Shown piece by piece: positions 7,947 to 40,998 of a stretch of 64,000 nucleotides of DNA (the stretch's first letter is position 1; each line of letters starts with the position of its first letter). A program made the translations under genes and the position numbers. Source of the DNA: Aminomonas paucivorans DSM 12260 (GTDB taxonomy: Bacteria > Synergistota > Synergistia > Synergistales > Synergistaceae). The notes under the pieces were generated by a model that worked only from the letters and a program-made list of their open reading frames with translations, searched no databases and was not told the DNA's origin. The stretch spans positions 1,178,001-1,242,000 of the forward strand of contig NZ_CM001022.1 in assembly GCF_000165795.1 (NCBI RefSeq), in the 5' to 3' direction.

Positions 7947-8828
7947 CTACACTTTCTCGCCCACGGACTTGCCGAAGAGTCCCGTGGGGCTGATCAGGAG
8001 GGTGACGATGAGGAGGGCGAAGACCACCAGGTCCCGGAACTGGCTGGAGATGAACCCGGCGGTGAGCATCTCCGCCAGGCCCAGGATGATGCTTCCCACC
8101 ACCGCCCCGGGAAGGGAACCCAGGCCCCCGATCACCGCCGCCACGAAGGCTTTGATGGTGATCATCCCCAGCTGGGGGTACAGGGTATAGCGCACGGAGA
8201 GAAAGATGCCCCCCACCGCTGCCAGAAGCCCCGCCACGAAGAAGACGATGGAGATGAGGAGGTTCACGTTCACCCCCATGAGCCCGGCGGTGCGGAGGTT
8301 GTAGGACGCCGCCCGGATGGCCAGGCCCCACTTGGTCTTCACCAGGAAGAGCTGGAGCCCCACCAGGCAGACCACCGAGGTGACCAGGGAGAGGAGGTCG
8401 AAGGCGCTGGTGGTGGCCAGGCCGAAGAGGCTCACCGGGTCCGTGGGGATCACCGGAGGCAGGGCGCGGAAGCGGCCCCCCACGGTGACCACGAAGAGGT
8501 TCTCGATGACGATGCTCATGCCCATGGAAGCGATGAGGAGGTACAGGGTGACGTTGGTGCGTTCCCGGATGGGTTTGTAGGCCAGGCGCTCCGTCAGGAT
8601 GGCGGAGACCCCCCCGGCCAGGAGGGAGAGGACGGCGGCCACCCAGATGTTGGTGCCCATGGCCTTGAGGGCGTAGTAGCAGGCGTATCCGCCGATGACC
8701 AGGAAGCCCCCGTGGGCGAAGTTGGAGAACAGAAGGATGGAATAGACCAGAGAGTATCCCACGGCGATGAGGGCGTAGACGGAACCGAGGGAGAGACCGT
8801 TGATGACCTGCTGGATTATCGTGTCCAT
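7947..8828 (-). CDS. livH: LivH, branched-chain amino acid ABC transporter permease
   Basis: A 293-residue permease beginning MDTIIQQVINGLSLGSVYAL, the usual LivH start; 17 further in-frame codons upstream lack a conserved sequence and a GAGGTGG site precedes ATG 8828. Motifs include NFAHGGFLVIGGY near residue 45 and VIGGLGSLPGAVVGS near 225. It is the first gene of the liv operon, about 100 bases downstream of a good promoter. No LivJ/LivK binding protein is encoded in this operon, which is unusual; one must be supplied elsewhere, perhaps by a gene like that at 11203. Confidence 0.92.
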   Translation of the reverse strand: MDTIIQQVINGLSLGSVYALIAVGYSLVYSILLFSNFAHGGFLVIGGYACYYALKAMGTNIWVAAVLSLLAGGVSAILTERLAYKPIRERTNVTLYLLIASMGMSIVIENLFVVTVGGRFRALPPVIPTDPVSLFGLATTSAFDLLSLVTSVVCLVGLQLFLVKTKWGLAIRAASYNLRTAGLMGVNVNLLISIVFFVAGLLAAVGGIFLSVRYTLYPQLGMITIKAFVAAVIGGLGSLPGAVVGSIILGLAEMLTAGFISSQFRDLVVFALLIVTLLISPTGLFGKSVGEKV

Positions 8829-8926
8829 CCAGGCCACCTCACTTTGTGGTTGAAGCGCGTTTCGGGCACCGAAGACCACCTCCGAATCGGACTATGCGCT
8901 CTGCCGTGGAGACAGGCACAAAGGAA

Positions 8927-8956
8927 ATTGTACCAGAAGGGAAGTTTATTTTGCAC
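8927..8956 (-). promoter_or_regulatory. probable sigma-70 promoter of the liv operon
   Basis: On the minus strand TACAAT (8932-8927) is preceded by GTGCAA (8956-8951) with an 18-base spacer. The -10 is near consensus; the -35 is weak. It lies about 100 bases before the livH start. Confidence 0.5.
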
Positions 8957-9159
8957 GGCGAAAACCGGGGGGAAGCGAAGCAGGGAAACGAAGGCGAAGA
9001 CTCTCCATATTCGAAAAAATCAAGGCATATGCCCGATGCAGCAGGGATTAACGGGGGCGTTGCCCCGGGGGATCCGGGGAACACCGGGTTGATTCCAGGA
9101 ATTGCCATGCAAATTCGCAAAACGGCAAGGAACGCACCCTATTGCATCACCGGTTTCCT

Positions 9160-9190
9160 TTGAGGCCGCAGCCGTGGTCTTTGCTACAAT
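9160..9190 (+). promoter_or_regulatory. probable sigma-70 promoter for the gene at 9215
   Basis: TTGAGG (9160-9165) and TACAAT (9185-9190) with a 19-base spacer. Transcription would begin close to 9197, leaving a very short leader before ATG 9215. Confidence 0.5.
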
Positions 9191-9214
9191 CGGGACGAAA
9201 GGACGGTGGTCCCG

Positions 9215-9712
9215 ATGGCGGAAGCGCTGCGTTGGTCCGTGGAATCCCTGGAGATCCCCGAGGGATGCAACCTGGTTCTGGGGCAGAGTCACTTCATCAA
9301 GACCGTGGAGGATCTTTACGAGGCCCTGGTCACCTCTTCCCCTTCCCTGGAGTTCGGCATCGCCTTCTGCGAGGCTTCCGGGGACTGCCTGATCCGCCGG
9401 GACGGCAACGCGCCGGACCTGGTGCAGGCTGCGGTGGAAAACGCCCGGCGGGTGAACGCGGGGCACGTGTTCGTGGTGCTGCTGCGAAACGGATACCCCA
9501 TCAACGTGCTGGACCGGATCAAAAGGGTTCAAGAGGTGTGCCGGGTCTTCGCCGCCACCGCCAATCCCCTCCAGGTCCTGGTGGCCCAGACGGAGCAGGG
9601 CCGGGGCGTGGCGGGGGTGGTGGACGGGTTTCCCACCCTGGGGGTGGAGACGGAGGAGGATGCGGCGGGACGCCGACATCTGCTCCGGGAGATCATCGGC
9701 TACAAGCGCTGA
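9215..9712 (+). CDS. adenosine-specific kinase family protein
   Basis: A 165-residue member of the small adenosine-specific kinase family (PF04008). Family landmarks are [20 protein letters not shown] near residue 20, an [12 protein letters not shown] segment, the [16 protein letters not shown] block and the C-terminal [14 protein letters not shown]. Structures of archaeal members bind adenosine or AMP in a trimer; the cellular role is unclear. ATG 9215 is chosen over GTG 9206 because the purine-rich AAAGGA site sits too close to the GTG. Its end overlaps the convergent symporter gene by 13 bases. Confidence 0.88.
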
Positions 9713-11082
9713 CCCCGACGCCCCGCCCAGAACCCCGCAAGGCAGAACGCTCCCGACAGGGCGAGCCCCAGGAAGAGGGGCTCGCCCTGTTGTCCTGTCA
9801 GGGGCCAGAGGAGGGTGCCCCCCAGCCCGGCCAGGGCAGAGGCCAGGGCCCAGGGTGGGGGAAGGCGCCCCGGGGCCAGGACCCCCAGGACCAGGGGGAA
9901 GAAGGTCCCCGCCCCCCGGAGACCCATGCTCAAATAGCTCCACTGAAGGATCAGGGAGCCTCCGCTTCGCGCCCCCAGGGCGGCGGCGGCGGCCACCACC
10001 CCCAGAACGGAGAGGCGCAGGGCCCGAATCTCCCCTCGCCCGTCCGCTCCCTTCCCGTTCCACCCCAGGGCGGGGAGGAGGTCCCGGGCCAGATTGGTTC
10101 CCATGCCCAGGGAGAGCCCCGCCGCGCAGCCCACCACGGTGATGAACAGGATCCCCCAGAGCAGCCCCGCCACGCCGGGGGAAAAGGAGTGGAGCAGAAA
10201 CCAGGGCAGGGCTAGGGCCGGGTCGATGTCCACCCCCCATGCCCGCACGGAGAGTCCCACCCAGACCCCCAGAAGGCCCAGGGGAGGCATGAGCAGGGCG
10301 GACCACAGGGCTCCCCGCCGGGCCGTGGCCTCGTCTCGGGCGGCGAAGAGGGACTGGAGGTAGATCTGGGTGCAGAAGACCCCCACCACCAGGGAGACGC
10401 AGGCCCCCAGGTCCACCCCCAGGCCTCGCCCCAGGGGGTGAAACCAGGGGAAGAGGGGAAGGCTCTTCCATAGGAAGGTAGGGGTGGCGCCCTGGCTGTG
10501 GGCGGCCAGGGCGCAGAATGCCAGGACCCCGTAGAGGAGGAGGATCTTCGCCTGTCCCAGGGTGCCGTAGCTTCGCAGCCCCCCCAGAGCGATGAAGGCC
10601 AGCACCAGCAGGGCCGTGCCCCCCACCGCAAGGGCGGGAGGCAGGGGCAGCACGCTGGCCAGCAGCGCCGCCCCGGAGAGAAACTGGGCCACCACGGAGA
10701 GGAAGGTTCCCAGAAACGAAGCGGCCAGGGCCGTCAGGGCGGTCTTGCGCCCGTATCGCTCCTCCAGGAGCTGGATCAGGGTCTCCACCCCAAAGCGGCG
10801 CAGCGGGGCCGCAAATCCCCACCCCAGCAGGAGGCATCCGAGCCCGCCTCCCAGGGTGAACCACAGGGCGGAGAGTCCCGAGGTGTAGGCCAGCTGAGCG
10901 GTCCCCACCGTGGAGGCCCCTCCCACCAGAGCTCCCAGGAGGATGCCCACCACCGCCGGGGCGGAGGCGCTTCGCCCCGCCACGGTGAAATCGCTCCCGG
11001 AGCGGACGCGCCGGGCTCCCCAGACTCCCAGACCCGCAAAAGCCAGCAGCACCGTCGCCACCGCCAGGGTAAAAGTGACCAC
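9700..11082 (-). CDS. sodium:solute symporter (SSS/SLC5 family)
   Basis: A 460-residue integral membrane protein with about 13 hydrophobic segments, of the SSS family. An early [31 protein letters not shown] region (about residues 29-58) matches the TM1-loop-TM2 pattern, and [11 protein letters not shown] near residue 350 is the conserved late motif. The start is GTG 11082, preceded by GGAGGGGGG with a 7-base spacing; further upstream the open frame is only shadow. It is monocistronic, divergent from the LivJ-like gene. The substrate cannot be assigned. Unlike the other SSS gene in the window (35921-37315), it has no adjacent kinase. Confidence 0.85.
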
Positions 11083-27286: not shown

Positions 27287-28117
27287 TTAGAACACCGCGT
27301 AGTCCGCGTCTCGGGGATTGCATAAAAACATGTGGCCTGGCGAGTGCGTGATCACGAAGGGGGGCTTGGAGGCCATCACCACCGCCTGGGGGGTGACGCC
27401 GCAGGCCCAGAACACCGGGGTCTCTCCGGGGCGGATGGGCACCGGGTCCCCGAAGTCCGGCCGGTTCACGTCGGCGATGCCGAGGGCTTCGGGGTCGCCG
27501 ATGTGGATGGGGGCGCCGTGGACCGAGGGGAAGCGGCCCGTGCAGAGAACCGCCTTGGGCACCAGGGGGTTGGGGACGGGCCTCATGCTCACCACCGTGG
27601 GACCGGCGAAGCGCCCTGCGGGGACGCAGGGTCGGTTGGTGATGTACATGGGCACGTTGGTGCCTTCCTCGATGTGGCGCACCGGCACCCCCGCCTCCAG
27701 CAGGGCTCCCTCGAAGGAGAAGGAGCAGCCCAGGAGGAAGGCCACCAGGTCGTCCCTCCACAGGTGGCGGATGTCCGTGGGCTCCTCCGTCAGCACCCCG
27801 TCCCGGTAGACCCGGTAGCGGGGCAGGTCGGTGCGCAGATCCGCCCCCGGGGCCACCAGCCGGGGCTCCGGGGATCCGGGTTCCGTCACGTCCAGCACCG
27901 GGCAGGGTTTGGGGTTTCGCTGGCAGAAGAGGAGGAATTCGAAGGCCCAATCCGCCGGGAGGATGGCCATGTTGGCCTGCACGTGTCCCCGGCACAGCCC
28001 CGCCGTGGGTTCCGTCCAGGCCCCCGTCCGGATGATCCGCCGCATCTCCTCCGGGGAAGTGGCGCCGTGGGCGGCGGTACGCTCCGCCAGGGTGCCGCCG
28101 CAGAGAAGGTCGCTCAC
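27287..28117 (-). CDS. ycsI: YcsI/D-glutamate cyclase family protein (PF07286)
   Basis: A 276-residue member of the family formerly DUF1445. Family blocks are [15 protein letters not shown] near residue 40, the [22 protein letters not shown] block near 125, [15 protein letters not shown], then [12 protein letters not shown] and [12 protein letters not shown] at the end. Mammalian DGLUCY, which contains this domain, forms 5-oxo-D-proline from D-glutamate. Here it ends the 5-oxoproline operon, so a link to glutamate/5-oxoproline conversion is plausible. It overlaps the pxpA end by 4 bases. Confidence 0.88.
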
Positions 28118-28887
28118 AGTCCCAGCACCTCCTTGAGGGAACAGACCTGAACCCCCGCGGCCTCCAGGGCCTTTCGGGCCGCCAGGGCCATCTCCACCGC
28201 CTCGGGGGTGTCCCCGTGGAAGCAGATGGAGTGGGGGCGGAAGGCGATCTCCGTGCCCTCCACGCTTCGCACCTTGCCCTCCGTGGCCATGCGCACCACC
28301 CGGGCTGCGGCCTCCTGGGGGTCGTGGATCAGGGCTCCGGGCTGGGAGCGGGGCACCAGGGTCCCGTCGGCCTGGTAGCCCCGATCGGCGAAGGCCTCCG
28401 CCCCGTAGGGAACCCCCACGGCCTCCGCGGCCCTGTCAAAGGCGGACCCCGCCAGGCCCAGGAGGATCAGTCCCTTCCCCGCGTCCTTCACCGCCCGGGC
28501 GATGGCTTCCGCCAGGGCGGGATCCTTGGCGGCCTGGTTGTACAGGGCCCCGTGGGGCTTTACGTGGACCAGGGGCACCCCTGCGGCGTCGCAGAAGGCC
28601 CGCAGCGCCCCGATCTGATACAGACAGTTGGTGTAGGCCTCCCAGGGGGTGCAGGCCAGGGTCCTCCGTCCGAAACCCTGGAGGTCCGGGTGTCCCGGGT
28701 GGGCTCCCACGGACACCCCGTGGCGGGCGCAGAGCTTCACGGTGGTCTCCATCACCTGGGGGTCCCCGGCGTGGAAACCGCAGGCCACGTTGGCGGAGCT
28801 GACCGCCCTCAGGACCGCCTCGTCGTCTCCCAGCACGTAGGTTCCGAAGCTTTCCCCCAGATCGCTGTTCATGTCCATGCGGTGCAT
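28114..28887 (-). CDS. pxpA: PxpA, 5-oxoprolinase subunit A (LamB/YcsF)
   Basis: A 257-residue LamB/YcsF family protein, subunit A of the ATP-dependent prokaryotic 5-oxoprolinase PxpABC that opens L-5-oxoproline to L-glutamate. The N-terminus [12 protein letters not shown], the [13 protein letters not shown] block, VGAHPGHPD and [10 protein letters not shown] are diagnostic. ATG 28887 is preceded by AAGGAGG with a 5-base gap. Unusually, the operon order is pxpB, pxpC, pxpA, ycsI. Confidence 0.94.
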
Positions 28888-28909: not shown

Positions 28910-29968
28910 TTAGGCCCCGGGGCTGACCTGTACGTCGTACTCCCGTCCCTCCAGGCGCAGGCGGAAACGACGGGGGCCCTCCCCCTGGAGGGAGGGGGTT
29001 TCCTGTCGGCTGCGCCAGGAGGCCCGCACGCTCCCGGCCCGGCGGAGCCGTTCCTCGAAGTCCCGCAGGACCGCCGTGGCCTCCTCCGGGGTGGTCCGTC
29101 GAAACCGGACCCCCTGTCCCGGGAGGCGCTGGGCCAGTTGGGCCACGGACCAGGCGGAGAGCACCCCGATCTTGGTGTAGCCCCCCGTGGTCTGCCGATC
29201 CGCCAGCATGGCGATGGGCTGGCCGTGTCCGGGCACCTGGATCGCCCCCAGGGGGATGGCGTCGGACACGATGTCCGCCCCCGCAAGGTGCTCCACCGCC
29301 GGTCCCTCGAAGCGGTAGCCCATGCGGTCCGCCTCGGGGGAGATGGCGTACTCGTTTCCGAAAAACGTCTCCAGCCCCTGGGGGGTGAAGGCGTCCGTCT
29401 GGGGGCCCTCCAGCACCTCCAGGGGGGCCAGGGGATCCCAGCGGGGTCTCATGTCCTCGGGACAGGGTAGCCCTTCTCCCCGAGCCCACAGGGGGTCCGG
29501 AGAGCCGGAAACGATCTCGTCCCCCGCCGCCAGCGCCCGGCCCTGAAAACCTCCCAGACGGGCACGCAGGTGGGTGGAGCGGCTGCCCATCACCGAGGGC
29601 ACCTCCACCCCCCCGGCAAGGCACAGGTTTGCCCGGCACCCCCCGGAACCCAACCCCCCGAAGGAGATCCGGCACCCCCGGGAGACCCGGTAGACCCGCC
29701 AGGGCTCCGCCGGGATTCCGTCCAGGCGCATCTTCAGGTCCCCTCCGGCCAGGATCAGGGTTCCCCCCTCCAAGACCTCCAGCTCCGGTCCCATCACGGT
29801 GAGTTCCAGGGCCGCCGCCCCCTCCCCGTTGCCCAGCAACACGTTCCCCAGGCGCAGGGAGAAGGGGTCCATGGCCCCGGAGACGGAGACCCCTCGGGAC
29901 TGGTGCCCCCAGCGTCCCAGGTCCTGCACCGTGGTGAGCATCCCGGGTTTGTGCACCAGAAGGCGCAT
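28910..29968 (-). CDS. pxpC: PxpC, 5-oxoprolinase subunit C (biotin-dependent carboxyltransferase-like)
   Basis: A 352-residue protein of the AHS2/KipA type. The start HKPGMLTTVQDLGRWGHQS, the GVSVSGAMDPFSLRLGN block, LSPEADRMGYR-like EYAISPEADRMGYRFEG and QTTGGYTKIGV are family marks. PxpB and PxpC together phosphorylate 5-oxoproline. ATG 29968 overlaps the pxpB stop (ATGA). Confidence 0.93.
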   Translation of the reverse strand: MRLLVHKPGMLTTVQDLGRWGHQSRGVSVSGAMDPFSLRLGNVLLGNGEGAAALELTVMGPELEVLEGGTLILAGGDLKMRLDGIPAEPWRVYRVSRGCRISFGGLGSGGCRANLCLAGGVEVPSVMGSRSTHLRARLGGFQGRALAAGDEIVSGSPDPLWARGEGLPCPEDMRPRWDPLAPLEVLEGPQTDAFTPQGLETFFGNEYAISPEADRMGYRFEGPAVEHLAGADIVSDAIPLGAIQVPGHGQPIAMLADRQTTGGYTKIGVLSAWSVAQLAQRLPGQGVRFRRTTPEEATAVLRDFEERLRRAGSVRASWRSRQETPSLQGEGPRRFRLRLEGREYDVQVSPGA

Positions 29969-30717
29969 CACCGGCTTCCCCCTTCCCGGATCCGGGTCAC
30001 CCGGTAGGCCCCCGAGGTCACCTGGGCTTCCAGGTCCACGTAGGTCTTCTCGTCCACCCGCTGAAAGCGGATCCAGTCCCCCGCGTCTACCAGGGTGGGG
30101 GGGGTGCCGTTCGGGTCGAAGAGCCGCAGGGGGGTGCGGCCGATGAGCTGCCATCCCCCGGGGCTGTCCATGGGGTACACCCCGGTCTGTTTGCCCGCGA
30201 TGCCCACGCTGCCCCCGGGGATCACCGTGCGGGGGTTGGCCAGGCGCGGGGTGGCCAGGGATTCGTCCATCCCCCCCAGATAGGGGAAACCGGGGGTGAA
30301 GCCCAGCATGAAGCAGTAACAGTCCCGAGCCGTGTGTCGGCGGATCACTTCCTCCTGGGACAGCCCCGTGTGGGTCGCCACGTTCGCCAGGTCCGGACCG
30401 TGCTCCCCGCCGTAGCACACCGGCAGCACCACCACGGACCGTTCCGCTTCCTCCTCGTCCCGGAATTCCGTCAGGGAGCCGCGGATCCGGTCTTCCAGGT
30501 CCTCCCGGCGGCAGACCAGGGGGTCGAAGTACACCGCCAGGGAGCGGTAGGTGGGGACGCATTCCCGCAGTCCCGCCGGGGGAGCGTCCTCCAGGGAGCG
30601 CCTGAGGAGCTGGAGCCTGGCGTTGGAGGGCCGATGGATCTCGTCGGCAAACTCCACCACCAGGCATCCTTCCCCGGCGCCCAAGAGTTTCGGTGTCTCG
30701 TAGATCGCCAAGCCCAT
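29968..30717 (-). CDS. pxpB: PxpB, 5-oxoprolinase subunit B (KipI/AHS1)
   Basis: A 249-residue AHS1-domain protein. Diagnostic blocks are CYGGEHGPDLANVA near residue 102, FMLGFTPGFPYLGGMD near 136, TVIPGGSVGIAGKQTGVYP and SPGGWQLIGRTP. In Bacillus KipI also inhibits a sporulation kinase; in a non-sporulating context the 5-oxoprolinase role is expected. It lies 19 bases after the NRAMP-like gene and overlaps pxpC. Confidence 0.93.
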   Translation of the reverse strand: MGLAIYETPKLLGAGEGCLVVEFADEIHRPSNARLQLLRRSLEDAPPAGLRECVPTYRSLAVYFDPLVCRREDLEDRIRGSLTEFRDEEEAERSVVVLPVCYGGEHGPDLANVATHTGLSQEEVIRRHTARDCYCFMLGFTPGFPYLGGMDESLATPRLANPRTVIPGGSVGIAGKQTGVYPMDSPGGWQLIGRTPLRLFDPNGTPPTLVDAGDWIRFQRVDEKTYVDLEAQVTSGAYRVTRIREGGSR

Positions 30718-30736: not shown

Positions 30737-31957
30737 CTACTTGAACATGTCCAGGATCTTCGTCAGGGAGGTGACCCCCATCCACCCCGTGAAGGCCACC
30801 ATGATGTACCCCATGATACTCATCCAGAGGGGGTGCTTGTAGTCGCCCACGATGTCCTTGCGGTGGGCCGCCAGGAGCATGGACACCAGGGCCACGGGGA
30901 GGATCAGGCCGTTCACCGCCCCGGCGAAGATGAGCAGACGCACGGGCTTGCCCACGGTGACGAAGATGGCCGTGGAGGCCACGATGAACCCGATGATCCA
31001 GTACCGCTGGTTGGCCTCGATGGTCTTGGCCAGGGTGCGAAGGAAGGAGATGGAGGTGTAGGAGGCTCCCACCACGGAGGTCACCGCGGCGGCCCACAGG
31101 ATCACCCCGAAGGCCTTGTAGCCCAGCTCGCCCGCGCCGATGCGGAAGGCGGAGGCGGGGGGATTCTCCGGATCCAGGGGGTGTCCCATCACCACGACCC
31201 CCAGGATGGCCAGAAAGAGGAGGTACCGCATGACTGCGGTGATGCTGATGGCGTTGATGGAGCCCGCGCTGATCTGCTTCAGGTGGTCCTTGCCCACCAC
31301 CCCCGCGTCGATGATCCGATGGGCCCCGGCGAAGGTGATGTAGCCTCCCACGGTTCCTCCCACCAGGGTGAGCACCATCATCCAGTCGATCTTGGAGGGA
31401 AGGACCGTTTCCTGCAGGGCCAGAGCCACGGGGGGCTGGGTCTTCACCACCACGATGAACACCAGGGCGATCATGAGGAAGCCCAGGATTTGGGCGAATT
31501 TGTCCATGGCCTTGCCCATCTCCTTATTCAGGAAAAGGAGGATGGCCAGGGCGGCGGAGAGGGCCGCTCCGGGGATCAGGGGCACCCCCGCCACCACGTT
31601 GAGCCCCATGGCGGCTCCCGCCACGTTGCCGATGTTGAACACCAGCCCCCCCAGGGCCACCGCGAAGGCCAGGAAGTACCCCAGCCCGGGGAAGACCTTG
31701 TTGCCCACGTCCTGGGCCCTCATGCCCGAGACCCCCAGGATGCGCCAGATGTTGAGCTGCACCACCATGTCGATGAGCACCGAGGCCAGGATGGCAAAGC
31801 CGAAAGCCGCCTGGAGCTTCTCCGTGAACACCGCCGTCTGGGTCAGAAAGCCCGGCCCGATGGCGGACGTGGCCATGAGGAACGCCGCCCCCATCAGGAC
31901 GCTCAGGGTCCCCGCCTTGTTCTCCTTGCCGCCCAGCAACTTCCCGTTCTCCGACAT
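30737..31957 (-). CDS. NRAMP-like transporter (YcsG type) of the 5-oxoproline operon
   Basis: A 406-residue membrane protein with about 11 hydrophobic segments and NRAMP architecture. The TM1 motif is SAIGPGFLTQT, not the DPGN metal motif, and the TM6 region (FAGAHRI) lacks the MPH metal ligand. It therefore probably does not carry divalent metal. The same neighbour, YcsG, accompanies pxp genes in Bacillus, so 5-oxoproline or a related acid is a reasonable substrate guess. It is first in the operon, behind a sigma-54 promoter, with CGGAGG before the ATG. Confidence 0.85.
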   Translation of the reverse strand: MSENGKLLGGKENKAGTLSVLMGAAFLMATSAIGPGFLTQTAVFTEKLQAAFGFAILASVLIDMVVQLNIWRILGVSGMRAQDVGNKVFPGLGYFLAFAVALGGLVFNIGNVAGAAMGLNVVAGVPLIPGAALSAALAILLFLNKEMGKAMDKFAQILGFLMIALVFIVVVKTQPPVALALQETVLPSKIDWMMVLTLVGGTVGGYITFAGAHRIIDAGVVGKDHLKQISAGSINAISITAVMRYLLFLAILGVVVMGHPLDPENPPASAFRIGAGELGYKAFGVILWAAAVTSVVGASYTSISFLRTLAKTIEANQRYWIIGFIVASTAIFVTVGKPVRLLIFAGAVNGLILPVALVSMLLAAHRKDIVGDYKHPLWMSIMGYIMVAFTGWMGVTSLTKILDMFK

Positions 31958-32004
31958 GTGCGACCACCTCCGATAAAGGATGAGAATGCCTCACCCTCTC
32001 TCTA

Positions 32005-32020
32005 TGCAAAAAGACTGCCA
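32005..32020 (-). promoter_or_regulatory. sigma-54 promoter of the 5-oxoproline operon
   Basis: On the minus strand TGGCAG, five bases, TTGCA: the -24 GG and -12 GC are at the exact spacing of the consensus TGGCAC-N5-TTGC. It lies about 48 bases before the NRAMP-like ATG, directly beside the rpoN gene and its NtrC-type regulator. Confidence 0.78.
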
Positions 32021-32036
32021 GATGGATCGGGGGATC

Positions 32037-32054
32037 GGGAATCATCGGATTCCC
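32037..32054. promoter_or_regulatory. inverted repeat, candidate activator-binding site
   Basis: GGGAATC and GATTCCC arms (7 bases each, perfect) with a 4-base centre, lying about 17 bases upstream of the -24 element on the minus strand. It is a candidate site for the NtrC-type regulator encoded at 33307-34653, though close to the promoter for an enhancer site. Confidence 0.45.
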
Positions 32055-32093
32055 GGGAAAAGGGGGAAAAACGCAGGTCTTCCGAAAGGGGGA

Positions 32094-33320
32094 TTAGCTT
32101 TCGTGCGGTCCCCGCGCCCCCGGGCGTGCGGTTCCCGCACGGTTCGACGGGACAAGGCCCAGGCGGAGGCGGTGGTACGTCACGGTCCGGCGGGGCAGAC
32201 CCAGAGCTTCGGCGACCCTTCGGTCCGGAAGGCCCTTTTCCTGGGCGTCCCGGAGCAGGGCCTCCAGGGTGTCGTAGTCCAGGTCCGGGCGACGTCGGGG
32301 GGAACGGGCCAGGAGGAAGGCCAGGGGCAGGGTGCCCCGGAGGGTTTGCGCCCAGGTCTGGTTCAGGCAGCGGCTGAGGGTGGACGGGGAGATCCCCGTG
32401 TCGTCGCTCAAGGTCCGAAGCCCCAGGGGGGCCCGGGGGGCCGCCGAGTCCAGCAGAAAGGCCCGCTGGCGGTGGGCCAGGGCCAGCCCGAGGCGCACCA
32501 GGGTCCGGGAGCGCAGTCCCAGGTGCAGGAGAAGCTCCCGAAGCCGCCGGTCCGTCTCCCCCGCAGGGAGGTCACTGGCCCATTCCACCCGGGGCTGGTG
32601 TTCCCGAAGCAGGCGGCAATCCACGGAGCCGTCGGAGCCCGGAAGGAGGGACAGCTCCGGGCGCACCGTCCGGGTGGGGACGAGGCCCCGTCCCGGGGCG
32701 GGGTCCAGGCGCCGCAGGGCCGCCAGTGCCGCCTCCAGGCGCCCCGGGTCCCAGTCCTGTACCTGACAGAAGTGCTTCAGGGTTCCCCCCTCCAGGTCCT
32801 CCCGTCCTTCCCGGAGCAGGGTGGCCTCGTCGGAGGGGTCTCGCCCCAGCCTGCGGAGCTGGAGGAGCAGGCACTCCTGGAGGTCCCGGGCGAAGAGCCC
32901 CGGGGGGTCCGCCCAGGCCTGGAGGGCCTCCAGATTCCGCAGGAAGGAAGCCGGGGGGAGGCCCAGAAGCGCCGCCCCCTCCGCCGGGGAGACGTTGAGG
33001 AGCCCCCGGGGGCCCAACAGCTGGACCCACAGCTCCGGAGGGGTGGGGTCCTGGCCCAACCCGGGGCAGGAGGCCACCTGGGAGTGCAGGGCCTCCTCCA
33101 GCCCCGCCTCTCCGGGGAGGTCCACTCCCAGGGCATCCAGGGAGAGGGGGCGTCCCTGGGGCGGACGGATCACCGCCGGGAGGCCTCGGGCCAGGGAACG
33201 AAGGGACTCCGTCAGGTCCTCCGGGGAGAGGAAGAGCCAGTTTCCCTGAAGCCAGAGGTAGGGCCTTTGGGTCAGGGAGGGCTGGGGGCGGGGCTCCTGA
33301 CGCAGCTCAGGCCAGGTCAT
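32094..33320 (-). CDS. rpoN: RpoN, RNA polymerase sigma-54 factor (divergent)
   Basis: A 408-residue sigma-54 factor. The core-binding and DNA-binding regions are recognisable: LASDLPAGETDRRLRELLLHL-like WASDLPAGETDRRL and LGLRTLSDDTGISPSTLSRCLN. The RpoN box appears as LPRRTVTYHRLRLGL near the C-terminus, which differs from the usual ARRTVAKYRE. The N-terminal activator region (region I) is shortened and lacks the Gln-rich pattern. It overlaps the end of the NtrC-type gene by 14 bases and ends a five-gene operon. Its own sigma-54 box lies just beyond its stop. Confidence 0.85.
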   Translation of the reverse strand: MTWPELRQEPRPQPSLTQRPYLWLQGNWLFLSPEDLTESLRSLARGLPAVIRPPQGRPLSLDALGVDLPGEAGLEEALHSQVASCPGLGQDPTPPELWVQLLGPRGLLNVSPAEGAALLGLPPASFLRNLEALQAWADPPGLFARDLQECLLLQLRRLGRDPSDEATLLREGREDLEGGTLKHFCQVQDWDPGRLEAALAALRRLDPAPGRGLVPTRTVRPELSLLPGSDGSVDCRLLREHQPRVEWASDLPAGETDRRLRELLLHLGLRSRTLVRLGLALAHRQRAFLLDSAAPRAPLGLRTLSDDTGISPSTLSRCLNQTWAQTLRGTLPLAFLLARSPRRRPDLDYDTLEALLRDAQEKGLPDRRVAEALGLPRRTVTYHRLRLGLVPSNRAGTARPGARGPHES

Positions 33321-34653
33321 GCTTCTGGAGCCTGCGGAGCAGGGAGAAACGGGAGATCCCCAGGATCCGGGCGGCCTGGGTGCGGTTCTGTCCCGCCGCC
33401 TCCAGGGCCTCCAGGAGGCAGCGCCGTTCCTGGGCCTCCAGGCGTTCCGGAAGAGGCAGGTCCGTCCCCTCCGGGGCGGGGAGATCCTCGGGCAGGCGTC
33501 CCAACATCTCCTCCGGCAGGTCCTTGAGGCGGACCAGGGGATCCGAGGGGTCCGCCAGGAGGGTCAGCCGCTCCATCAGGTTCTTCAGTTCCCGCACGTT
33601 TCCCGGCCAGGGGTAGGCCAGGAAGAGGTCCTCCACCTCCGGGGAGAGGTGCTTGGGGATCCGTCCCCGTTTGGCGGCGAAGAACTCCAGGAAGAACCCC
33701 GCCAGCTCCAGGACATCCCGCCCCCGCTCCCGCAAGGGAGGGATGGTCAGGGGCAACATGGAGATGCGGTAGAACAGGTCCTTGCGGAAGCTCCCCCGGG
33801 CCACCGCCTCTGCCAGGTCCACGCAGGTGGCGCAGACCACGTTGAGGGACACGGTGCGCTCCCCCGATCCACCCAGGGGGCGCAGGGCCCGGGTGTCCAG
33901 GAAGCGCAGCAGTTTCCCTTGAAGGGAGGGGGGCAGGTCCCCGATCTCGTCCAGGAAGAGGGTTCCCCGGTCCGCCAGCTCGATGAGCCCCTGCCGGTCC
34001 CCCGTGGCCCCCGTGTAGGCCCCCTTGCGGTGCCCGAAGAGCTCCGATTCCAACAGGGTCTCGGGGATGGCGGCGCAGTTGAGGGGAACGAACTGCCCCC
34101 CGCCTCCCGTCACCTCGTGGAGCAGTCGGGCCACCACCTCCTTCCCCGAGCCGCTCTCCCCCAAAAGCAGCAGGTTCAGGTCCGTCTGCCCCGTCAGGCG
34201 GGAGAGGGTCTCCTGGAGGGGGCGCAGGGCGGGGGAGGACCCCACCAGGGGGGCGGGACGGCAGCGGGCCCGGTCCCGGGCCTGGCGCAGGAGTACCAGA
34301 GAGTCCCGGGCCTTGGCCACCATGCGGCGCACCGCCTCCAGGGAGAAGGGCTTGTCCAGGTAGTCGAAGGCCCCTTGGCGGATGGCCCGGACGATGAGGG
34401 GGGATTCCCCGTAGGCGGTCATGAGGATCACCCGGGTCTCCGGGGCGGCCCGCAGCAGGGAGGGCAGCTCCTCCAGCCCCAGGCCGTCGGGAAGCCGCTG
34501 GTCCAACAGCACCAGGTCCGGCGCCTCCTGGCTCAGGTGGCGCCGCAGCTCCTCCAGGCGGGAGCACAGCCGTACCCCGTACCCCTCCGCTTCGAAAGCC
34601 TGCTTCAGCCCCTGGGAGAGGCGCGGCTCGTCGTCCACGATCCACAGGTTCAT
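33307..34653 (-). CDS. NtrC-family sigma-54-dependent response regulator
   Basis: A 448-residue activator with three domains. The receiver (residues 1-115) has DDEP, LLDQRLPDG with the phosphoacceptor Asp near 52, and K in DYLDKP. The AAA+ domain has Walker A GESGSGKE near 165 and the sigma-54 contact motif as GAYTGA. The C-terminal Fis-type helix-turn-helix reads NRTQAARILGISRFSLLRRLQ. It overlaps the kinase gene (ATGA) and rpoN. The target promoters are inferred to include 32005-32020. Confidence 0.93.
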   Translation of the reverse strand: MNLWIVDDEPRLSQGLKQAFEAEGYGVRLCSRLEELRRHLSQEAPDLVLLDQRLPDGLGLEELPSLLRAAPETRVILMTAYGESPLIVRAIRQGAFDYLDKPFSLEAVRRMVAKARDSLVLLRQARDRARCRPAPLVGSSPALRPLQETLSRLTGQTDLNLLLLGESGSGKEVVARLLHEVTGGGGQFVPLNCAAIPETLLESELFGHRKGAYTGATGDRQGLIELADRGTLFLDEIGDLPPSLQGKLLRFLDTRALRPLGGSGERTVSLNVVCATCVDLAEAVARGSFRKDLFYRISMLPLTIPPLRERGRDVLELAGFFLEFFAAKRGRIPKHLSPEVEDLFLAYPWPGNVRELKNLMERLTLLADPSDPLVRLKDLPEEMLGRLPEDLPAPEGTDLPLPERLEAQERRCLLEALEAAGQNRTQAARILGISRFSLLRRLQKHDLA

Positions 34654-35924
34654 GAGAGTCCATCCCCTTCCTCGTGGGGTTCCTCCTGCCGGGGCAGGAT
34701 CAGGATGAACCGGGTCCCCCCGGGGGAGGTCCGGCAGCTCAGGTTTCCTCCATGATCCTGGGCGATCCGCTGGGCGATGGAAAGCCCCAGTCCCGTCCCG
34801 TCCGGGCGGGTGGTGACGAAGGGCTCGAAGACCCGGTCCACCAGTTTCTCGGGGATCCCCTTCCCCGTGTCCTCCACGGCGAAGCGCAGCTCCTCCGGGG
34901 TCTCCTGCAGCTCCAGGGTCAGGGTCCCCCCTTCCTCCATGGCCTTCAGAGCGTTGAGCCCCAGGTTCAGCAGCAGCTGCCGAAGCTGGTCCTCATCTCC
35001 CCAGAAGGGGAGGGGAGCCGGTGGAGCCTCCAGGACCACCCGGACGTTGCCCCGGGAGCCCTGACTTCCCACCATCCGGGCGGTCCATTCCAGCAGGTCC
35101 CGGGGCTGGAGTCGCTCCCTCCGGGGAGGGCGCGGCCGGGCGAAGGCCAGGAACTGGTCCACCGTGCGCCCCAGCCGGTCCATCTCCACCCCCAGGGCCT
35201 CCAGGTGTCCCTCCAGTTCCGGACGGTCTCGGAGCCGGTCCGCCAGCAGGTCCAGGTGGATGCGCATGCTGGCCAGGGGGTTGCGGATCTCGTGGGCCAC
35301 CCCCGCCACCAGCTCCCCCAGGGCGGCCAGCCGGTCCATGCGGACGATCCGCCCCTGAACCCGGCGCCATCGTTCCATCTGTTCCGCCAGGTCGTTGAAC
35401 ACCCCCGTGACGTGGGACAGCTCGAAGGAGACCCCGCGGCCCAGGGGAAGCCGCACCGAGCGACCCCGGGCCAGCTGAGAACAGCCCCAGGAGAGGCGCC
35501 GCAGGGGGCGGGTGATGCCGTAGGCCAGAAACACGGCGATCTCCACCGAGGCCAGCAGGCCGATCATCCCCAGCACCAGGAGGTAGCGGTTTTCCTCCAC
35601 CAGCTCCGCGAAGAGGGCCTGACGGTTCAGGGTCAGCCCCCAGTCCTTCCCGTCGGCGGACCGAAGGATCCGGTCCACCGGCCCTTCCGCCAGGGGAGGG
35701 GTGGAGACCTTCCACGCCGGGCCCAGCCGGGACAGCCAGCCCTCCGCCGCTACGGAGGGCAGACGGGTCACCACCTCCCCCACCAGGTCCGAATCTCTCA
35801 GCGCCTGGGTGCGCAGGTCCCCGTAGCCCTGGTAGAACCGGGTCCCCAGGAGGAAGAGGGCCAGGCTCACCGCCAGGGCGGTGAGGATCCACTTCAGCAG
35901 CCCCTCCAGGGTCGGGGGGGTCAC
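34650..35924 (-). CDS. sensor histidine kinase, partner of the NtrC-type regulator
   Basis: A 424-residue membrane kinase. Two hydrophobic segments (about residues 9-28 and 125-150) flank an extracytoplasmic region of about 100 residues. A HAMP-like linker follows, then the H-box GELVAGVAHEIRNPLASMRI, an N-box NLGLNALKAMEEGG and G-boxes VEDTGKGIPE and GTGLGLSIAQRI. The GTG start overlaps the symporter stop (GTGA), and its end overlaps the regulator start. Sensor input may come from the symporter, as in CbrA. Confidence 0.92.
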   Translation of the reverse strand: MTPPTLEGLLKWILTALAVSLALFLLGTRFYQGYGDLRTQALRDSDLVGEVVTRLPSVAAEGWLSRLGPAWKVSTPPLAEGPVDRILRSADGKDWGLTLNRQALFAELVEENRYLLVLGMIGLLASVEIAVFLAYGITRPLRRLSWGCSQLARGRSVRLPLGRGVSFELSHVTGVFNDLAEQMERWRRVQGRIVRMDRLAALGELVAGVAHEIRNPLASMRIHLDLLADRLRDRPELEGHLEALGVEMDRLGRTVDQFLAFARPRPPRRERLQPRDLLEWTARMVGSQGSRGNVRVVLEAPPAPLPFWGDEDQLRQLLLNLGLNALKAMEEGGTLTLELQETPEELRFAVEDTGKGIPEKLVDRVFEPFVTTRPDGTGLGLSIAQRIAQDHGGNLSCRTSPGGTRFILILPRQEEPHEEGDGLS

Positions 35925-37315
35925 GATCTCGCCCTCCAAGAGAGGATCCAGAAGGCTCCTTCGAAGGCCAGGGCCACCAGCATGGAGGTTTCCGGCGTGA
36001 GGGGGGAGAGGGTGGAAAGGAGGGCGTGCACCCCCAGGGCGGAGGCCAACACGGCGAAGGTCTGCTTGGGAGCCATGCGTCGGGGCAGGTAGAGGGGGAA
36101 GAGGAAGCACACCGCCACCACCGTCCAGCTCATGCGCCCCAGGGCCAGGATCCCCGGAAGGGGGATCTGGCTCAGCACCAGGGACACCGTGGCGATGGCC
36201 ACGATGGCCAGGCGGTTTTGCAGAAGGAACCGATCCTCCCCGAAGGGGTCCTGCTCCGCAAGGGGCCTCTGGGGGAGCAGGTCGTGGCACAGGGAGCAGG
36301 CCGCCAGGAGGAGCTGGGAATTGGCGGTGCTCACCGCCGCCGCGAGAACCGCCACCAGCAGGGGCAGGGCTCCCCAGACGGGCAGGGTTCCGTCGAAGAG
36401 CCGCGCAAAGGCCGTCGGGTCCAGGGTCTGGGGGATGTGGGGGAAGGAAGCCCTCCCCACCAGCCCCAGGACGGTGAGGCACAGGTAGATCCACCCCAGA
36501 AAGAGGGGGGCGGCGCAGAGCATCCCCAGGGCATCCCGGGTGCGCCGCGCCGCCATGAGGCGCACCCCGTACTGGGGGTTCGCCGCTACCCCCAGACCCC
36601 AGGCCAGACCCAGGGTGAGGGTGGTGATCCCCTCCCTCCAGGAGCTCCAGGGGTTCAGAAGCTCCGGGGCCCGCACTGCCAGGACCCGGCAGGTCGCCAG
36701 GGGGGAGCCGTAGAGGTGGATCGCCGCCCCCGCCGCCAGGGTCACCCCCGCCAGGATGAGGCAGAGGTTCAGGGCGTCACTTCGCACCACCGAGGGGTAG
36801 CCCCCGAAGGTGGTGTACAGCACGAAGAGGTACACCAGCGCCGCGGCGGCGAACCCCAGGGGGAGCTGGAGCAGGTGGGCCGCCACGGCCCCGAAGGCCC
36901 GAAACTGGATCACCAGGTACAGGGTGTAGGCGAAGAGCAGCGCCCCTCCTCCCAGGCGGCGGAGGCGCTCGTCCCCGTATACCCGAGCGAGCCACTCCGG
37001 CAGGGAGAGGCATCGCACCCGACGAAGGCGGAAGACCAGCAGGGGCATGGGGACCAGTCCCAGGAGCCAGCCGTTCACGGAGCCCCCGAAGGCCCGGAAG
37101 CCGTCCTGCATCATCCAGAGGGTGAACCCCACCACCGAGGCGGCGCTCATCCAGGTGGCGCAGAAGGTGGCCAAGGACATCCACATCCCCGTGCGACGCC
37201 CCCCCAGGTAGAAGAGGCTTCGCGTCTCGTTCCACGCGAAGGCCTGCCCCGTGAGCAGCAGCAGCGCCAGGGTGTACCCCGCGAAGGCCCCCAGGTGAAG
37301 CAGCAGGGGGGGCAT
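35921..37315 (-). CDS. SSS-family sodium:solute symporter linked to the two-component system
   Basis: A 464-residue SSS-family membrane protein with about 13 hydrophobic segments. Family blocks are the YLGGRRTGMWMSLATFCATWMSAASVVGFTLWM region (TM1-TM2) and the later FHxxxLVAVLAAAVSTANSQLLLA block carrying the sodium-site pattern. It is followed, overlapping, by a histidine kinase gene, resembling a split CbrA, where an SSS transporter domain is fused to the kinase. It could carry or only sense its substrate. The ATG overlaps the stop of a 37-residue peptide gene. Confidence 0.85.
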   Translation of the reverse strand: MPPLLLHLGAFAGYTLALLLLTGQAFAWNETRSLFYLGGRRTGMWMSLATFCATWMSAASVVGFTLWMMQDGFRAFGGSVNGWLLGLVPMPLLVFRLRRVRCLSLPEWLARVYGDERLRRLGGGALLFAYTLYLVIQFRAFGAVAAHLLQLPLGFAAAALVYLFVLYTTFGGYPSVVRSDALNLCLILAGVTLAAGAAIHLYGSPLATCRVLAVRAPELLNPWSSWREGITTLTLGLAWGLGVAANPQYGVRLMAARRTRDALGMLCAAPLFLGWIYLCLTVLGLVGRASFPHIPQTLDPTAFARLFDGTLPVWGALPLLVAVLAAAVSTANSQLLLAACSLCHDLLPQRPLAEQDPFGEDRFLLQNRLAIVAIATVSLVLSQIPLPGILALGRMSWTVVAVCFLFPLYLPRRMAPKQTFAVLASALGVHALLSTLSPLTPETSMLVALAFEGAFWILSWRARS

Positions 37316-37428: not shown

Positions 37429-37575
37429 GAAAATCACCTCGCAGTGCATCATACCCGACGGCCTGGGTGTTCGGTAGAATTGACGATGTCAGGATTCGTC
37501 AGATTCGTAGACTGGAGAACACGGAAGACCCGCCCCGGCGTCCCTGGCCGGAGGCCCCTTTTGGAGGTGAGGTTC

Positions 37576-39066
<1,491 letters not shown>

Positions 39067-39077
39067 GGGACGAAAAC

Positions 39078-39116
39078 GGGGAAGGGGGAGGGCCATGGCC
39101 CTCCCCCTTCCCTTGT
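39078..39116. terminator. terminator between htrA and the two-component pair
   Basis: 34-base perfect palindrome (39079-39112) built from GGGAAGGGGGAGGGCC and its complement, followed by TTGTC and preceded by AAAA. Likely bidirectional for the convergent genes. Confidence 0.75.
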
Positions 39117-39146
39117 CATGGATTGATTGCTTGTGATGGCGTCACC

Positions 39147-40307
39147 TCAGGCTTCCTCTTCCTCCTCCCCCGGGTCGGGCTGCATCAGGTTTTCCGTGTC
39201 CAGGGGGAAGCGGAGGGTGAAGCGGGAGCCCGAATCGGGGGCGGACCAGACCTCGATCTGCCCTTGGTGAAGCAGGGCGATGCGCCGGACCAAGGGAAGC
39301 CCCAGGCCGTAGCCCTGAGTGGCCCGGGCGGTGTCTCCCCTCCAGAAGGGTTGGAAGCACTTCTCCCGGGTCTCCGGATCCATCCCCTTGCCCCGGTCCC
39401 AGACCGTCAGGACGGCGGAACTCCCCTCCGCCCGGGTGGAGACCCCCAGCTCTCCCCCCTCGGGGCTGTATTTTGAGGCGTTCTCCAGCAGGTTGGCGCA
39501 CAGCCGGATCAGCAGGGTCTCCCGTCCCCGAAGGGGGGCGGACTCCAGGTCCTGTCGCAGCTTCTGGCCTCGGGAGGACAGGACAGGCAGGACCCCGTCA
39601 ACCGCCTCCTCCGCCACGATCAGGAGGTCCGTGGCCTCCGCGTCCTCCAGCCGCGCCAGGGCGTCCAGTCGCGCCAGGTCCAGGAGCCCCTTCACCATGC
39701 TCTGCATCAGGTCCGCCTGCTGGCCGATCTCCCGCAGGCGTTCCTGATAGTAGTCCTGGTCCCGCTCCTTCAGGAGGGCCACCTCCACCTTGCCCTTGAT
39801 CACCGCCAGAGGGGTGCGCAGCTCGTGGCTCACGTCGGAGGTGAACTGCTGCTTCACCTGGTTCATGGCGACCTGGAGCCGCATGAGGGATTGGCGGATC
39901 TGCTGGGTGACCTCGGTCATCTCCCGGTCCTCCGGGTTTTCCGGCAGGGGAAGCCCCAGATCGTCGGGGGAGAGGTGTTCCAGGGAGCGGATCAGGGTCT
40001 GGAAACGATCGTGGTTCCTGCGGGCCTCCCGGAAGTTGAAGAGGAAGACCAGGGGGGTGAGGAGCAGGCCGCTGACCAGTCCGGCCTCCACGAGGCCGGG
40101 CTGGGAGAAGGCGAAGATGACCACCTCCCGGGTGGCGGAGCGGGGCAGAAAGGAATTCTGCCCCCAGAAGAGGGATGCCAGGAGGACGAAGAGCACCCCG
40201 AACAAGAACAGCGCCGCCACCCACAAAGACGTCAGGGCCAGGGCGGCGCGTCCTTCTTCGGACAGGCGGAAGCCGACGGTTGCGGGCCGACCGGGACGGC
40301 GGGCCAC
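39147..40307 (-). CDS. sensor histidine kinase (EnvZ/PhoR class)
   Basis: A 386-residue kinase. Two hydrophobic segments (about residues 23-48 and 70-92) define a short external loop. The H-box is FTSDVSHELRTPLAVIKGKVEVAL, the N-box LLENASKYSP, and the G-boxes DRGKGMDPE and GYGLGLPLVRR. The start is GTG 40307. It lies 10 bases after the regulator gene, in one operon with it, and faces htrA. The signal is unknown. Confidence 0.93.
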   Translation of the reverse strand: MARRPGRPATVGFRLSEEGRAALALTSLWVAALFLFGVLFVLLASLFWGQNSFLPRSATREVVIFAFSQPGLVEAGLVSGLLLTPLVFLFNFREARRNHDRFQTLIRSLEHLSPDDLGLPLPENPEDREMTEVTQQIRQSLMRLQVAMNQVKQQFTSDVSHELRTPLAVIKGKVEVALLKERDQDYYQERLREIGQQADLMQSMVKGLLDLARLDALARLEDAEATDLLIVAEEAVDGVLPVLSSRGQKLRQDLESAPLRGRETLLIRLCANLLENASKYSPEGGELGVSTRAEGSSAVLTVWDRGKGMDPETREKCFQPFWRGDTARATQGYGLGLPLVRRIALLHQGQIEVWSAPDSGSRFTLRFPLDTENLMQPDPGEEEEEA

Positions 40308-40317
40308 GGAGTCTCTC

Positions 40318-40998
40318 TCAGTCGTAGTCGGGGCAGCTGACCTTGTAGCCCACTCCCCGGACGGTGACCACCACCACGTCCAGGTTGAAGGGGCGCAGCT
40401 TGTCCCTCAGGTACTTGACGTGCACGTCCACCACGTTGCTGGTGCCGTCGTACTCCTTCTGCCAGACGTGGGAGATGATCTTGTCCCGGGTGAACACCTG
40501 GTTCTCGTAGCGCATCAGGAGTTCCAGGATGTCGAACTCCCGGCGGCGCAGGGGCACCTTGGTCTCCCCCACGCAGCACTCCCGGGCCACGGGGTCCAGG
40601 GTCAGGGGGCCGCACTTCAGCAGGGGACGACGCTGTTCCGAATGGCGACGGATCAGGGCGTTGACCCGGGCCAGGAGTTCCTTGAAGTCGAAGGGCTTGA
40701 TGAGGTAGTCGTCCGCTCCCCGGTTGAGTCCCTCCACCCGGTCGTCCACCGCGTCCTTGGCGGTGAGCATGATCACCGGGGTGTCGTGCCCCTCCTCCCG
40801 GAAGCGGTCGATGAGTTCGAAACCGTCCATGCCGGGGAGCATCACGTCCAGGACGATGCAGTCGAACTCCCCGGAGCGGGCGCGATTGAGCCCCGTTTCC
40901 CCCTCGTAGGCGGCTTCCACGGCGTAGTCGTGTTCCTCGAAACCCTCCTGGAGCACCTGGACCAGATCGTGGTTGTCCTCGATCACCAACAGCTTCAT
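40318..40998 (-). CDS. OmpR/PhoB-family response regulator
   Basis: A 226-residue regulator. The receiver has EDNHD, LDVMLPGMDG with the phosphoacceptor Asp near 51, and K in YLIKPFD. The winged-helix C-terminal domain has RRREFDILELLMRYENQVFTRDKIISHVW and VVDVHVKYLRDKLRP, then VRGVGYKV. It is the first gene of the pair with the kinase at 39147. The 240 bases upstream separate it from divergent rpsO; a clear -35 is not seen for it. Confidence 0.94.
   Translation of the reverse strand: MKLLVIEDNHDLVQVLQEGFEEHDYAVEAAYEGETGLNRARSGEFDCIVLDVMLPGMDGFELIDRFREEGHDTPVIMLTAKDAVDDRVEGLNRGADDYLIKPFDFKELLARVNALIRRHSEQRRPLLKCGPLTLDPVARECCVGETKVPLRRREFDILELLMRYENQVFTRDKIISHVWQKEYDGTSNVVDVHVKYLRDKLRPFNLDVVVVTVRGVGYKVSCPDYD

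Follow-up and report, generated by a model that had tools for sequence, protein, structure and literature searches.

Sigma-54 is usually described as a global regulator on which many different activators draw. In Aminomonas paucivorans DSM 12260 a gene for an RpoN-like protein lies beside a single candidate promoter in front of an operon for 5-oxoproline use, with a gene for an NtrC-type activator next to it. This arrangement raises the question whether the candidate is a real sigma-54 promoter and whether the surrounding genes form a closed regulatory circuit, as a first-pass annotation of the sequence had proposed. The DNA analyzed here, called the window, is a stretch of 64,000 nucleotides (positions 1178001-1242000) of the single-contig 2.63 Mb genome.

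Promoter site and gene order

The genes of the locus are arranged on the minus strand in the order SSF symporter, kinase, activator, RpoN-like protein, site, NRAMP-related transporter, PxpB, PxpC, PxpA and D-glutamate cyclase (Table 1). On re-reading, the element TGGCAG-N5-TTGCA was found with the same bases, GG/GC spacing and distance to the transporter gene as first described, and the domain assignments of the neighbors agree with its position beside rpoN-like and NtrC-type activator genes. The GG is at 32019-32018 and the GC at 32007-32006, giving an exact GG-N10-GC, and the 3' end of the site is 48 bp from the NRAMP-like ATG (31957). Transcription would be expected to start at ~31994. Beyond the symporter, a HtrA-type protease gene divergent from it and then a second kinase/response regulator pair were observed (37444-40998 of the window); both are also found beside the module in L039, L044, L045, L046, L053 and L058.

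Table 1. Features of the locus, in window coordinates
Feature	Position	Strand	Basis or remark
-24/-12 element TGGCAGTCTTTTTGCA, sigma-54 promoter	32005..32020	-	sequence and conservation
Predicted enhancer (upstream activator site), perfect dyad GTGCG-N5-CGCAC	32126..32140	.	
Predicted enhancer, copy 2, one mismatch, 23 bp from first copy	32103..32117	.	
Palindrome CGGGAATC-ATCG-GATTCCCG (full extent of the perfect arms)	32036..32055	.	not conserved in relatives
Divergent sigma-54 (RpoN-like), 408 aa	32094..33320	-	
NtrC/AtoC-type activator: receiver, AAA+ with GAYTGA loop, Fis-type HTH	33307..34653	-	
Membrane histidine kinase (HAMP, HisKA, HATPase); start codon inferred	34650..35924	-	
SSF sodium:solute symporter, possible co-sensor	35921..37315	-	
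NRAMP-related transporter, target operon gene 1	30737..31957	-	
PxpB, 5-oxoprolinase subunit	29968..30717	-	
PxpC, 5-oxoprolinase subunit; start 29971 or 29968	28910..29971	-	
PxpA, 5-oxoprolinase subunit (LamB/YcsF)	28114..28887	-	
D-glutamate cyclase family protein	27287..28117	-	

The textbook consensus TGGCACGNNNNTTGCW, allowing up to 3 mismatches, gave 59 matches in the window against 67 expected. The site differs from this consensus at 2 positions and is equaled by three other matches in the window, two of which lack the -12 GC. The genome-wide scan for textbook-type sites which the first-pass annotation had suggested, carried out with the pattern TGGCAYNNNNNTTGCW, returned no match. When the relaxed pattern TGGCANNYTTTTTGCWT was used on the genome, the window site alone matched without mismatch, and the three others found at 2 mismatches equaled the count of the reversed control. 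In relatives, a conserved element, YGGCAACTTTTTTGCWT, was observed upstream of the transporter at the same place as the window site. The family consensus is GGCAACTTTTTTGCWT, from which the window site departs at 3 positions. Among 33 sites the second G and the GC are invariant, while the first G is present in 26. The site is convincing because it is conserved across genomes; its own sequence alone is not above chance. A search of 31950-32250 for a sigma-70-like promoter found none.

Conservation of the site, the predicted enhancer and the gene cluster

The sigma-54 DNA-binding domain was detected in 33 of 151 Synergistota genomes. Most of these carry the divergent form (25-62 bits) and few the canonical form (128-184 bits), while two genomes (G066 and G135) possess both. 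In nearly all its genomes the divergent form is situated in the same cassette, with the conserved order symporter-kinase-activator-sigma54-[promoter]-transporter-pxpB-pxpC-pxpA-D-Glu-cyclase; the exceptions are a rearranged (G021) and a decayed (G004) cassette. Scanning of whole genomes with the divergent factor showed the exact GGCAACTTTTTTGCWT once in each of 12 genomes, always at this operon. Among 44 further genomes with an NRAMP gene the exact element was present in 5, in each at the NRAMP operon, bringing the genomes in which it is single and at this operon to 17. From the site alone, with the sigma gene unchecked beforehand, the presence of the module was predicted, and the full module was found in 4 of 4 testable genomes; the fifth, G165, stands outside this test as its contig ends before the sigma-54 region. 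A site within 3 mismatches precedes 31 of 31 NRAMP operons of the module type (30 with the sigma gene seen, and G165) vs none of the 21 NRAMP operons without the sigma gene. A scan for -35/-10 elements before operons lacking the sigma-54 gene performed no better than on shuffled sequences, so no claim on a replacement promoter is made except for G004.

In the A. paucivorans genome only one sigma-54 DNA-binding domain and only one full activator domain were found, each encoded beside the site. Together with the single site per genome, the distribution among operons and the prediction result, this strongly supports the part of the proposed closed circuit in which sigma-54 and the NtrC-type activator would drive the 5-oxoproline operon. 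The circuit appears more exclusive than the first-pass annotation had supposed.

A dyad scan upstream of the sites revealed GTGCG-N5-CGCAC as a recurrent element. Within 350 bp upstream of the 33 sites 25 perfect copies are present, vs none in the remaining 581 kb of the same loci. The loci in which the motif was discovered also served for the count, which is therefore descriptive, but the difference is large and extends across several families. With up to one mismatch, the dyad is upstream of the site at 26 of 33 loci. Both window copies are inside the end of the sigma-54 gene, and the distance from dyad to promoter is typical of activators of this type. Counts of the dyad over whole genomes range from 0 to 12, mostly close to those of the reversed-pattern control; the A. 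paucivorans genome has two copies, the further one at 2215150. Its significance is in its position, not in rarity alone. Four related genomes (G115, G082, G152 and G153) have the site without the dyad, and their activators show LRK instead of LRR in the recognition helix. This correspondence hints at a possible change in enhancer specificity and is suggestive but, the four being close relatives, no more than a lead. At L052, L054, L136 and L137 an intact promoter without GTGCG-N5-CGCAC was observed along with an activator having LRK, not LRR.

The perfect repeat GGGAATC-GATTCCC, which the first-pass annotation had pointed out, is indeed present upstream of the site, as GGGAATC-ATCG-GATTCCC at 32037-32054. 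It is of ordinary strength, as the window contains 38 distinct centers of perfect dyads (8-bp arms, 0-12 bp spacers), 6 of them with a 4-bp spacer. The suggested search of its own genome gave a single exact copy, along with 4 other places within 2 mismatches. The palindrome was not conserved in the relatives compared, all of which are outside the genus, with one genome of the genus in the set. Its reading as the activator site was rejected on account of this lack of conservation and its ordinary strength, and the conserved GTGCG-N5-CGCAC is likely to be the site at which the activator binds. A role as RNA hairpin or terminator was also rejected: the sequence has no more stable fold than its shuffled versions (z -1.15), and a terminator scan gave no report there. 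It is unlike the CodY box of Synergistetes, which has AT-rich arms (PMC9318921). The palindrome is probably outside the circuit.

Several natural variants of the cluster were observed. In several genomes of the genus g27, genes for a hybrid kinase and for a response regulator separate sigma-54 from the operon, with which the site remains. Inserted genes between sigma-54 and NRAMP are present at L036, L040, L056 and L057; the insert of L036 encodes a hybrid kinase (ABC_sub_bind sensor, receiver domains, Hpt) followed by a receiver-HD protein. In G113 a TRAP transporter replaces the NRAMP gene, with site and enhancer kept. In G021 sigma-54 has remained by itself at the old locus (L049); another contig, C30 (L143, 85-2347), carries the activator, the kinase and a near-consensus site, and there the site precedes genes of the Trp/Tyr (amino-acid) permease and acetamidase/formamidase families. 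In G004 (L053, about 8200-10800) the sigma-54 and activator genes are in fragments while the 5-oxoproline operon is intact; the SSF gene is only partly alignable and the kinase was not found. A full activator domain is no longer present in the G004 genome and the enhancer dyad is absent. Its site is degraded to 4 mismatches, and a sigma-70-like TTGACC-17-TATAGT lies over it, a loss of the circuit with apparent replacement by a sigma-70-type promoter.

The divergent sigma factor and its partner proteins

The window sigma factor possesses the core-binding domain PF04963 (71.6 bits, cut-off 22.9) and the DNA-binding domain PF04552, comprising HTH and RpoN box (47.6 bits, cut-off 22.8), both of which are present in 18/18 aligned members. 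The RpoN box is altered to P-x-RT-x-x-[WY]-H from ARRTVAKYR; compared with ARRTVAKYRE, the divergent members have Trp or Tyr (His once) for Lys, and His for Tyr. PF00309 (region I) was unrecognized in the window protein and seen in 3/18 members, the region being alignable and diverged. As the protein scored 101 bits with the NCBIfam rpoN_sigma equivalog (cut-off 277), and four relatives scored 132-144 bits, it was placed in the sigma-54 superfamily outside the curated equivalog. When its structure model was compared with the PDB, all 31 matches at E <= 0.001 were sigma-54 chains, and the whole-chain superposition was poor because of a mean pLDDT of 73.9; the model supports the presence of a sigma-54 fold in the divergent factor. 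In the tree, the divergent proteins grouped in a single clade with full support, from which E. coli RpoN and the canonical Synergistota proteins were separate. At 383-420 aa the divergent members are short; they lack most of region II, and their region I has diverged. Median identity to the window protein rises from 34% for sigma-54 through 41% (kinase) and 55% (activator) to 73% (transporter). Within the cassette the sigma factor has the lowest conservation of all proteins, and its clade is fast-diverging.

A single-protein search of genome contigs for sigma-54 relatives found none, while a seven-sequence profile, of limited reach beyond the phylum, retrieved seven loci only, six titled Synergistaceae or Thermovirga and one Clostridia. 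On the contig titled Clostridia bacterium (L169), the divergent sigma-54 is 70% identical to a Synergistaceae one; the contig is possibly a misnamed bin. We tentatively suggest, at somewhat below even odds, that the divergent clade is a naturally orthogonal sigma factor which lost global recognition and serves one promoter without cross-talk, even beside a canonical sigma-54 as in G066 and G135, the RpoN box and the -24 preference (GGCAAC, fixed T-tract) having changed together.

The activator contains the AAA+ sigma-54 interaction domain PF00158 (194.5 bits) and the HTH PF02954 (39.8 bits). Its sigma-54 contact loop is GAYTGA, where the family motif is GAFTGA, and GAYTGA variants are reported to be functional (PMC6615313). 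The conserved linkage of the symporter and kinase genes suggests that their products may sense 5-oxoproline.

PxpA, PxpB and PxpC are all present in the target operon (PF03746, PF02682 and PF02626 at 282-341 and 254 bits), PxpC scoring below its NCBIfam equivalog cut-off (194 vs 500). From these family assignments, the operon is predicted to import 5-oxoproline and convert it to glutamate. The NRAMP-related protein is a member of PF01566 (69.5 bits, cut-off 29.8) and scored far below the curated MntH/Nramp models (34 vs 430 bits, 21 vs 50 bits). Its first helix has GPGF in place of the DPGN of canonical NRAMPs, and it may carry 5-oxoproline rather than metal. The replacement of the NRAMP gene by a TRAP transporter in G113 leans somewhat to an organic substrate. 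The NRAMP-like YcsG of B. subtilis is reported to be a manganese importer (PMC10448178), and the pxpTABC operon lets C. glutamicum grow on 5-oxoproline (PMC13274462).

Proposed circuit, alternatives and known systems

Site, enhancer, linkage, co-occurrence and uniqueness were established by computation, whereas binding, activation, phosphorelay and a 5-oxoproline signal are what we infer. We give a probability of roughly 85% that the sigma-54 promoter is real and forms the core of a circuit that is self-contained and serves one promoter. The substrate sensed by the kinase and the symporter would probably be 5-oxoproline or else a related amino acid. The membrane kinase, probably aided by the SSF symporter, would then phosphorylate the NtrC-type activator, which would bind the tandem enhancer copies (GTGCG-N5-CGCAC) that lie ~115-140 bp before the transcription start. 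As known for the family, the GAYTGA loop and ATP hydrolysis would open the closed complex in which the divergent sigma-54 occupies the TGGCA-N6-TTGC-type site. As a result, uptake of 5-oxoproline and its conversion, probably together with that of D-glutamate, to glutamate would be switched on. The sigma factor appears to have no other detectable target. This circuit is supported by the site staying with the operon despite inserted genes and by G004, in which fragmented sigma-54 and activator genes, absent dyad and degraded site occur together. Counting against it are the departure of the window site from the family consensus and its ordinary match to the textbook one, the low RpoN score of the sigma factor with an activator-interacting region unrecognized by Pfam, the four related genomes with the site and without the dyad, and the site before a different operon in G021.

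That the site is real while the sigma factor serves a small regulon of promoters too diverged to be recognized, not one promoter, is unlikely. A window site already 3 positions off consensus means that other deviating sites could be missed, and the copy at 2215150 offers one further dyad; against this, the relaxed pattern found no more additional sites than the reversed control, exact sites are single in 17 genomes and only one activator is available for further promoters. The upstream DNA might instead act through GGGAATC-GATTCCC as a lineage-specific operator for the activator or a repressor, since this exact dyad is unique in the genome and just upstream of the -24 box. Such dyads are common in the window, however, and it is a different one that is conserved, leaving the operator slightly less probable still. 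A chance resemblance, with the operon read from a sigma-70-type promoter, would agree with textbook matches not above chance in the window, and is made very improbable by the conservation, co-occurrence, blind prediction and enhancer data, and by the failure to find a sigma-70-like promoter in the region searched.

In this bacterium and about 30 relatives, a normally global regulator thus seems to have turned into a one-operon switch. A single heritable cassette unites the sigma factor with its only activator and its only promoter. It can be traced through about 30 species, and its loss (G004), move to another operon (G021) and transporter swap (G113) provide a natural series on sigma-factor dedication, suited to asking how the DNA specificity of a sigma factor drifts when only one site has to be maintained. 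The cassette might also serve as a compact, orthogonal expression switch that depends on an activator, and it suggests a way in which Synergistota regulate the use of 5-oxoproline. Among open-licence papers, searches on Synergistetes with sigma-54 and on 5-oxoprolinase with sigma-54 gave nothing relevant, and no description was found there of a sigma-54, itself from a separate clade, that shares a locus with one activator and one promoter and seems to serve these alone.

Single-activator sigma-54 systems are known in Chlamydia, Borrelia and the mannose PTS of Lactobacillus plantarum (PMC3162934). The present system resembles these in having one sigma-54, one activator and a small regulon. It differs in that sigma-54, activator, kinase, symporter and target are encoded in a single conserved cluster, gene adjacency having been compared for the Synergistota side only, and in that the sigma factor is of a separate divergent clade. 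In Clostridiales, where the sigma-54 consensus is TTGGCATNNNNNTTGCT, 65% of activators control one operon, mostly nearby (PMC6615313). Control of one neighboring operon and GAYTGA loop variants, which are reported to function, are shared with them, but there one sigma-54 serves many activators, whereas here the sigma factor itself appears dedicated. The receiver-AAA+-Fis HTH activator, the HAMP-HisKA kinase and an enhancer at about -115 to -140 are like those of NtrC/AtoC two-component systems; the separate linked SSF symporter gene, the other enhancer sequence and the private sigma factor are unlike them. Among 5-oxoproline operons, C. glutamicum pxpTABC is controlled by the GntR-type PxpR (PMC13274462), and the B. 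subtilis pxp operon, with its NRAMP-like YcsG, by KipR, TnrA, MntR and AhrC (PMC10448178). In both, as here, a transporter goes with pxpABC, in B. subtilis also an NRAMP-like gene; in contrast to their sigma-70-type repressors and activators, the operon described here would be controlled by sigma-54 and an enhancer-binding activator.
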